Source of the DNA: Sphingomonadales bacterium
GTDB taxonomy: Bacteria > Pseudomonadota > Alphaproteobacteria > Sphingomonadales > Sphingomonadaceae
DNA length: 49,891 nt
Assembly (NCBI GenBank): GCA_025356275.1
Contig: JANXUK010000142.1
Span: 1 to 49,891 of the forward strand
Direction of reading: 5' to 3'
Shown: piece by piece, positions 14,163-32,067 of the stretch
Position numbering within the stretch: the first letter of the stretch is position 1
Layout of the letters: each line of letters starts with the position of its first letter
Translations under genes and position numbers: made by a program
The notes under the pieces: generated by a model
Databases searched by the model: none
Seen by the model: the letters and a program-made list of their open reading frames with translations, nothing else
Told to the model about the DNA's origin: nothing

Positions 14163-15338
14163 ATGCGTGATGCCGTCATCGTCTCTGCCGCCCGCACCCC
14201 CATCGGCCGCGCCTATCGCGGCGCCTTCAACGCCACCCAGCCGCCCAGCCTCGGCGCGCTGGCGCTCTCTGCCGCTGTCGCCCGGGCGGGCGTAGACCCT
14301 GCAGAGGTGGAGGATGTGGTCTGGGGCAGCGCGCTGCAACAGGGCGGGCAGTTTCCTAATATTGCCCGGCTGGTCTCGCTGCGCGCCGGACTGCCGGTCA
14401 CCACGTCGGGGATGAGCATCGACCGGCAATGCGCCTCGGGCCTGATGGCGATCGCCGCGGCCAGCCGCAGCGTGTCCATGGACGGCATCGATGTTATCGC
14501 CGCCGGGGGTCAGGAATCGATCAGCCAGGTCCAGACCAAGGACATGCGCATGGGCTTCGACCCGGCGCTGATCGCGATGCATCAGGCGGTCTATATGCCG
14601 ATGCTGCAAACCGCCGAAGTGGTCGCGGCGCGGTACGGGATCGCGCGTGCCCAGATGGACGCCTATGCGCTGCAATCGCAGCAACGCACCGCCGCTGCGC
14701 AGGCAGCCGGTGCCTTCGATGCCGAGATTGTGCCCGCCAGCGTGACTATGTCGGTCACCGACAAGGCCACCGGCGAGACCTCTAAGCGCGACATCACCAT
14801 CGCAAGGGATGAGGGCAACCGCGCCGATACCAATCTCGCGGGCCTCGAAGCGTTGCAGCCGGTGGTTCCGGGCGGTACCATCACCGCCGGCAACGCCAGC
14901 CAGCTTTCCGATGGCGCTGCCGCTGTGGTGATCATGGAGGCGGGCATGGCGGCCCGGCGCGGTCTGGCTCCCCTTGGGCGGTTCATGGGCATGGCGGTAG
15001 CCGGCACCGAGCCTGACGAAATGGGCATCGGTCCGGTGTTCGCGGTGCCGCGCCTGCTGACGCGATTTGGCCTCAAGATGGATGATATCGGGCTTTGGGA
15101 ACTGAACGAGGCCTTTGCCGTACAAGTGCTATATTGCCGCGACCGGCTGGGCATTCCCGATGCGCTTCTGAACGTCAGCGGCGGCGCGATCTCGATCGGC
15201 CATCCCTATGGCATGACCGGCGCGCGCTGTGCGATGCACGCGCAGATCGAGGGCAAGCGGCGCGGTGCGAAGCATGTGGTCGTCACGATGTGCGTCGGCG
15301 GCGGCATGGGCGCGGCGGGCCTGTTCGAGGTTCTGTAG
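14163..15338 (+). CDS. Acetyl-CoA acyltransferase (thiolase)
   Basis: A 391-residue thiolase with all catalytic features: nucleophile Cys90 in [12 protein letters not shown], the NEAFA motif (ELNEAFAVQ), His347 in [12 protein letters not shown] and the acid/base Cys377 in [10 protein letters not shown]. It catalyses either thiolytic cleavage of 3-ketoacyl-CoA in beta-oxidation or the reverse condensation. AAGGA lies 8 nt before the ATG. The MaoC hydratase is immediately upstream. The stop codon TAG is created by a mobile element: the element begins at its G (15338), and removal restores TAA. Without it the downstream DUF4126 gene would start about 20 bp away. Confidence 0.93.
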
Positions 15339-15479
15339 GGTGTGTGGTGATTTGGCTCAGGCAGGAGCGAGAATGGCTGATTTGAGCCACCCGGCGCGCA
15401 GCGGGTTTCAGTACGTGAGCACCGGAAGCGCGCAAAGCAGCTGTTCGCAGTCCGGCATCAGCCAAATCACCACACACCC
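15338..15479. mobile_element. 142-bp MITE-like element with 20-bp inverted termini and TA flanks
   Basis: Both ends carry the same perfect 20-bp inverted repeat, GGGTGTGTGGTGATTT plus GGCT, at 15338-15357 and 15460-15479. The dinucleotide TA flanks it at 15336-15337 and 15480-15481. The interior has no coding potential beyond short open frames. TA target duplication with short perfect termini and no transposase fits a non-autonomous element mobilised by an IS630/Tc1-mariner-type transposase. It sits exactly in the thiolase stop codon. The family assignment is inferred. Confidence 0.8.
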
Positions 15480-15500
15480 TAAACCGGGGAAGGGCGTGCT

Positions 15501-16142
15501 ATGAGTGATGCGGGCGCCTTGGCAATGATACCCACACTGGGCATCGTGCCGATCCTTGGCATGGCGGCCAGCGTCAGCTTGCTGTCAGGCTGGCGGCTGT
15601 ATCTGTGCGTGCTGGCCACCGGCATAGCGATGCGGATGGGCGGCATCCCGCTGCCGGAGCATCTGGCCGCGCTCAAGGTTCTGGCCAATCCCTTCGTGCT
15701 TGGCGCCGCAGCACTAGCCGCATTGTGCGAGTTTTTTGCCGACAAGGTGCCGTGGCTGGACAGCGTGTGGGACCTTGTCCACACGCTCATCCGCCCCCTC
15801 GGCGGTGCGCTGCTGGCGCTGGCCATCGTCGATCCGGCGGACCCGGCGACTCAGGCGGTGGTGTTCATTCTTGGCGGCGGCGGCGCGCTGCTGGCGCATA
15901 GCGGCAAGGCGGGCGCGCGTGCGCTGGTCAATGCCAGCCCCGAACCGTTCAGCAATATCGCGGTCTCCACCGCCGAGGATGCGACGACCAGTGGTTTATT
16001 GTACGTCACCTTCGCGCATCCCTTCGCCGCCGCCGGCGTGGCAGCGGGGCTGCTGCTGGTGGCGGGCGGGCTGATCGTGCTGGCGTGGCGGATTTTCGGC
16101 CGGCTGTTCGGACGCCGGCCCAAGCGCGTGACGGAAGCTTAG
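15501..16142 (+). CDS. DUF4126 family membrane protein
   Basis: A 213-residue integral membrane protein with about five hydrophobic segments. The DUF4126 signature is visible as LCEFFADKVPWLDSVWDLVHTLIRPLGGALLA (catalytic role unknown), followed by a glycine-rich helix and NASPEPFSNIAVSTAEDATT. No function is established for the family. GAAGGG about 7 nt upstream supports the ATG. It was probably co-transcribed with the thiolase before the MITE inserted; any promoter in the element would now matter for it. A cluster of palindromic repeats begins at its stop codon. Confidence 0.8.
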   Translation: MSDAGALAMIPTLGIVPILGMAASVSLLSGWRLYLCVLATGIAMRMGGIPLPEHLAALKVLANPFVLGAAALAALCEFFADKVPWLDSVWDLVHTLIRPLGGALLALAIVDPADPATQAVVFILGGGGALLAHSGKAGARALVNASPEPFSNIAVSTAEDATTSGLLYVTFAHPFAAAGVAAGLLLVAGGLIVLAWRIFGRLFGRRPKRVTEA

Positions 16143-32027: not shown

Positions 32028-32067
32028 GGTTGCCATCATATAAAGAATTCTTTATATGATGGCAACC
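32028..32067. promoter_or_regulatory. 40-bp perfect palindrome, probable operator of the met operon
   Basis: All 40 positions are self-complementary; the centre is AAAGAATTCTTT and the ends GGTTGCC/GGCAACC. It is AT-rich in a GC-rich chromosome and lies 8 bp upstream of the ATG of the ArsR-methyltransferase gene, so the promoter must overlap it. A TATGAT on the minus strand inside it could be the -10, giving a nearly leaderless transcript. SahR-like regulators bind palindromes of the ATAAAGA/TCTTTAT type (recalled, not checked). Confidence 0.75.

Follow-up and report, generated by a model that had tools for sequence, protein, structure and literature searches.

A palindromic element inside a thiolase stop codon belongs to a probable IS5-type MITE family lying mostly at gene 3' ends in Sphingomonadaceae

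According to the available sections of the published accounts, insertion sequences of the IS5 family have the target consensus Py-T-A-Pu, mostly CTAG (PMC5493358), and members of its IS427 group, including IS1248 and ISPaes1 of Paracoccus, are about 850 bp long (832-865 bp), often contain two overlapping ORFs, carry short inverted repeats and mostly produce 2-bp duplications, one of them having 4 bp (PMC3281130). Similar excerpts describe short repeats from other hosts. RUP of Streptococcus pneumoniae is a 107-bp intergenic non-autonomous repeat with TA insertion and IS-like ends, for which an IS630 element (IS630-Spn1) is the proposed mobiliser, and the Correia/NEMIS elements of Neisseria are hairpin repeats whose transcripts are proposed to be RNase III substrates affecting neighboring mRNA (PMC2229807). 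The enterobacterial ERIC or RU-1 is a 127-bp stem-loop repeat with TA ends and a TA duplication, insertions of which extend proteins or fuse in frame (PMC2759123). MITEPsy1 of Pseudomonas syringae is a 100-nt MITE with the target CTAG or YTAA and a 4-nt duplication (PMC3189936).

Here we analyzed the window, by which we mean the whole stretch of 49,891 nucleotides from contig JANXUK010000142.1 of a Sphingomonadales bacterium (genome G000), read on the forward strand. It contains a 142-bp palindromic mobile element (15338-15479, plus strand, oriented as in alignment A1) located inside the stop codon of a thiolase ORF (14163-15338, plus strand), the TAG (15336-15338) being composed of the left TA of the target duplication (15336-15337, no strand) and base 1 of the element. 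The left and right terminal inverted repeats (15338-15357 and 15460-15479, both plus strand) are perfectly complementary over 20 bp, or over 22 bp counting the TA, and the 52-nt arms are 81% complementary. The conserved core (15355-15463, plus strand) scores 92.9 bits with covariance model R1 of the family core, the window copy being one of the 35 sequences from which this model was built. The right TA (15480-15481, no strand) forms, together with the next base, the TAA of the joined flanks, and a DUF4126 ORF (15501-16142, plus strand) lies downstream; both gene names are those of the preliminary description. That description had placed a 142-bp element with perfect 20-bp inverted ends, flanked by TA, inside the thiolase stop, and had claimed that its removal with one TA restores a stop, leaving the protein end unaltered and the spacing to the next gene enlarged by the insertion. 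All of this held: the ORF ends with CTG-TAG when filled and with CTG-TAA-ACC when the flanks are joined keeping one TA, thus with CTG and then a stop in both states, and the distance from the stop to the DUF4126 ATG (15501) is 162 bp with the element and 18 bp in the joined flanks.

Short, devoid of a transposase ORF and bounded by terminal inverted repeats, the element has the traits by which MITEs are recognized. Its RNA fold reaches -83.8 kcal/mol (z -8.9), and the opposite strand gives -82.7 kcal/mol (z -9.1). A terminator scan of positions 15200-15700, restricted to loops of 3-8, returned no terminator-like sites and no U-run at the window copy, and an Rfam search of 10 loci (E up to 1) returned nothing on the element that reached a gathering score, the one sub-threshold match overlapping an element being MIR1883 at L134 (37.4 bits vs. 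128 required). The window has just one further perfect 20-bp inverted repeat with a span of 220 bp or less, a 40-bp hairpin at 32028-32067.

The window segment is a copy of a MITE family with a conserved structured palindromic core, not a one-off. The family repeat is about 146 bp long and occurs across Sphingomonadaceae and on rhizobial plasmids. The search for further copies that the preliminary description had proposed found them both in relatives and in the bacterium's own genome, where BLAST identified 22 other places (40 of 45 candidates scored), three of them with 88-93% identity over at least 139 bp, and where the covariance model has 25 matches, including the window copy. BLAST matches were present in 20 of 61 genomes, the own one included, all 20 belonging to one genus. 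Judging by its named neighbors, the window probably comes from Novosphingobium. With R1, 112 matches were found in 39 of 59 genus genomes (own genome included), and an order-wide search gave 127 matches in 35 of 196 genomes (nine from the same genus, the own one among them, 25 from different genera within the family and one from a different family). Matches to the window copy or to a copy from Shinella were also found on named plasmids of Novosphingobium, Sphingobium, Shinella, Phyllobacterium, Agrobacterium, Ensifer and others. In the own genome (L002, L009, L012, L013, L014, L018), copies are joined end to end with two further palindromes flanked by TA (TAGTGGATTGATTTTGACATTCG... and TAGTGGTTC...), with a single TA in common; the arrangement looks as if every insertion supplies the next CTAG. 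Genome G021 has another palindrome between TA dinucleotides (L279, C88:9820-10035), about 215 bp long and with the ends TACGTCGGATCGACATTCAAG.

In our main reading, to which we assign a probability of roughly 0.85, the element is a non-autonomous IS5-type MITE with a structured palindromic core, inserted at YTAR, the central TA of which is duplicated; it draws on the anatomy given above, the family, the excess of copies at stop codons, an empty site at the folC/MFS junction and the IS5 elements with family ends found in relatives. The folC/MFS junction (folC and MFS, like lolA and xth below, are protein genes named by eye) is the base-exact empty-site case for the family. Both genes are present in 17 of the 29 relatives that were fetched; in nine of the 17, the two stops overlap by 4 nt on one TA (YTAR), with no core present. 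In genome G030, the element lies in this shared TA, and both stops are TAG, 140 bp apart. In copies at TTAG and CTAA, the base inside the far TA (inner G or C) belongs to the element, which means that 2 bp, not 4, are duplicated. At the thiolase/DUF4126 junction, the comparison suggested by the preliminary description was borne out only in part. Both gene ends were identified in 27 of the 29 genus loci fetched for the DUF4126 gene, with five compact junctions, and the core was absent from these 29 loci, as it was from 29 named relatives and 29 folC loci; no base-exact empty site was obtained at the junction itself, because thiolase identity there is 66-83% (leaving aside one short partial match) and the spacers differ or other genes intervene.

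Most of the family is found at the 3' ends of genes, and most of its TA-tipped copies in stop codons; how common this position is had been overlooked in the preliminary description, as had the conserved core. We examined 172 copies with flanks, 112 in set one and 60 in set two, the latter being those of the 127 order-wide matches found in six copy-rich genomes (five of other genera and G291 of the same genus). A copy was counted as TA-tipped when it had TA at both tips and matching arms. In set one, 25 copies were called so, and five (L178, L184, L188, L212, L253) were dropped since their TA lies inside the stem. TA at both tips was thus found in 36 of the 172 copies (20 in set one; 16 in set two, all from other genera), while the remaining 136, including the five dropped, fall outside the stop test, and the rule misses part of the copies that have a 20-nt insertion. 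In 28 of the 36 (17/20 and 11/16), a tip coincides exactly with the stop of a neighboring ORF, the genes at most copies coming from a simple GC-position ORF caller; restoring the five dropped copies, of which L178 alone had a stop there, gives 29/41. Four of the 36 have stops at both tips (L171, L226, L265, L407). When the flanks are joined, the stops of set one are natural except at L266, where the stop needs the element, and the empty sites of all 11 stop cases of set two give TAA or TAG. The targets are CTAG in 21 copies, TTAG in eight, CTAA in four and others in three, that is, YTAR in 33 of 36.

In the mechanism we propose, the element would insert into YTAR with the central TA duplicated. 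As it starts with G and ends with C, landing in the TA of a stop (TAA or TAG) yields TAG on either strand, so that the exact protein end is kept and one insertion can spare two overlapping convergent stops. We consider it possible, and propose tentatively, that the family is fitted to stops, with G...C tips rebuilding TAG on both strands, YTAR in stops used beyond its site density, and landed copies then kept as RNA-level 3'-end hairpins, some of them fixed in the genus by tRNA-Ala and housekeeping genes. A somewhat doubtful alternative is an ordinary YTAR-specific MITE with no special targeting, in which YTAR survives in stops and intragenic insertions are lost. YTAR is indeed scarce in coding DNA, and 17-22% of the noncoding YTAR at the same loci lies within stops (73/436 and 38/176); however, 28/36 is about four times that share (pooled binomial p 1e-14; set two alone 7e-5). 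A stricter test confined the sites to the stop and the 60 nt downstream of it, where YTAR in the stop vs. downstream amounts to 76 to 75 and 39 to 30, so that 52% are expected in the stop; 28 of 30 copies lie at the stop and two only downstream (p 1e-6), again contrary to the untargeted reading, although set two alone reaches only p 0.03 (set one p 9e-6). The rate of stops at tips was 7/7 in genome G006, 4/4 in G204, 5/7 in G000 and 3/8 in G314, which taken alone has no excess at stops, in favor of the untargeted reading; copies within one genome may not be independent insertions. As the stop rule was spotted in set one, it is tested afresh only by set two and the named plasmids. Sixteen copies were fetched from the named plasmids, 15 of them with annotated genes, and nine of the 15 have the stop of an annotated CDS at a tip (the exceptions being L472, L474, L481, L482, L486 and L488), with CDS stops at both tips in three copies, one of which (L480) carries one additional base in the left tip.

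Where TA-tipped copies lie at unrelated places, they look as if they had moved recently; flank clustering left 52 copies as singletons, 20 of them in G000. The same clustering identified shared orthologous sites, in 17 genomes at tRNA-Ala(CGC)/obgE, in 14 between lolA-like and xth-like genes, in five at tRNA-Ala(GGC)/ffh, and in smaller groups elsewhere. In our reading, copies adjoining tRNA-Ala and other genes are passed on by vertical descent and accumulate compensatory changes. At the tRNA-Ala(CGC) site, for which 16 of the 17 genomes were aligned (A2; L193, with its right arm displaced, was left out), the tips vary among species yet remain paired. Changes on both sides were found in 31 of 57 pairs, and 91.6% of the cells pair, values that none of 500 shuffles reached, although such counts are favored by related sequences and by a structure taken from the tested alignment. 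G-U outnumbers A-C by 136 to 7 in the core and by 76 to 21 at the tRNA-Ala site, one constant G-U pair supplying 33 and 15 of these G-U counts, respectively. The G-U excess and the covariation speak for selection on RNA-like or single-strand structure, and orthologous persistence together with the 31 covarying pairs suggests that some old copies may be kept for their structure, the leading idea for their putative role being that of an RNA-level 3'-end element. A family copy downstream of the tmRNA gene in genome G033 (L200) has the same orientation as the copies adjoining tRNA-Ala.

These observations also favor a different order of events, with structure first and mobility second, in which the core, kept beside tRNA-Ala and other genes as a structured RNA or as an element of 3' ends, would have gained mobility through IS5-type ends. 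We regard it, too, as somewhat doubtful. Against it, the strand that carries the genes neighboring the tRNA-Ala site is the one with the weaker fold, the window copy lacks a U-run terminator, template-switch correction of palindromes could also yield matching changes, and, as stated above, the structure came from the alignment on which it was tested. In the mechanism that we prefer, a mobile element that lands at gene ends, the window copy would now add a long hairpin to a putative thiolase-DUF4126 transcript and may loosen the coupling of the two genes.

As regards the mobilizer, a tip search in genome G314 yielded a tip pair 852 bp apart (L450), and the two overlapping ORFs between these family ends are pieces of an IS5-family transposase (NF033580; PF13340, PF01609). 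An 854-bp element from a plasmid of Sphingobium sp. TomTYG73 (L475), annotated as an IS5 family transposase, has the ends TAGGCCGGATCGACATTCAG and TAGGGCCGATCGACATTCAG, resembling the tips of family copies. The ends of both (GGGCYGATCGACATTCAG type) differ from the window copy's tip, GGGTGTGTGG, and two other named IS5 relatives (L476, L477) have no such family ends. In the own genome, a draft of 143 contigs, tip patterns revealed no IS with GGGTGTGTGG, and the loci around tip matches contained no relative of the L450 transposase; ends were found with the tip pattern in only three of 79 genus genomes, the own one included. Eleven contigs of G030 have a 20-nt family tip as their very start or end, a pattern expected of a longer repeat present in many copies. 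Since IS5 elements with family ends exist, and given the target and duplication habits of IS5 and its IS427 group, the family is most likely mobilized by a transposase of IS5 type, and we infer that one moved the window copy itself.

The preliminary description had instead ascribed the TA duplication to an IS630/mariner-type mobilizer, a reading (an IS630/Tc1-mariner MITE) that now appears improbable. TA flanks the element on both sides, as expected of a TA target duplication, and the own genome contains IS630 elements. A search with the PF13358 profile in the own genome and five relatives gave six matches in G000 and nine in three of the five relatives. Among the matches inspected for ends (all but L339), these were readable in only a few, L028 in G000 and L332, L335 and L338 in G006, all unlike those of the family; the readable ends thus give IS630 no support as the mobilizer, most other matches being cut by contig ends or having no visible ends. 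The readable G006 ends are GAGCGGTTTYC, even though that genome has seven TA-tipped copies, and IS5 elements with matching ends exist, as does the YTAR preference (33/36). L028 (contig C31) has the ends TA-GTGGATTGATCGAGAC and is likewise placed in CTAG with G-first ends; however, its ends (GTGGATTGAT...) resemble those of a second repeat family, which it may mobilize. Finally, a chance inverted repeat, or a host hairpin without a link to mobility, has a negligible probability, having nothing but the intergenic position in its favor and being refuted by the copies at unrelated places, the empty site and the z of -8.9.

TA is frequent in stop codons, and there the element's first base can stand in for the displaced one; by using them, a transposable element can spread through a genome packed with genes and leave proteins intact. 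Since the protein is unchanged, annotation based on proteins only would miss such insertions. The series from fresh-looking insertions to long-kept hairpins makes the question of how a mobile repeat becomes a gene-end signal testable in cultivable bacteria.

The element is novel in detail but of a known type (IS5-type MITE), and no published description of the repeat was found in the partial collection of literature searched. Like IS427-group elements, L450 and L475 are of about 850 bp, L450 with two overlapping ORFs, and have short ends shared with the family, a grouping made by layout only; unlike them, the window element has no transposase and has a conserved palindromic core, and family copies lie in stop codons. 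Judged by description, RUP resembles the family in being intergenic, non-autonomous and TA-inserted with IS-like ends; it differs in its proposed IS630 mobilizer, and the available section of its account mentions no stop-codon rule (PMC2229807). The Correia/NEMIS repeats, from another host, share the hairpin form, again by description and not by sequence. MITEPsy1 has similar targets, but it duplicates 4 nt, whereas the TTAG and CTAA sites of the present family duplicate TA only. ERIC/RU-1 is similar, by description, in its stem-loop, TA ends and TA duplication; its insertions extend or fuse proteins, whereas the window element keeps the protein end.
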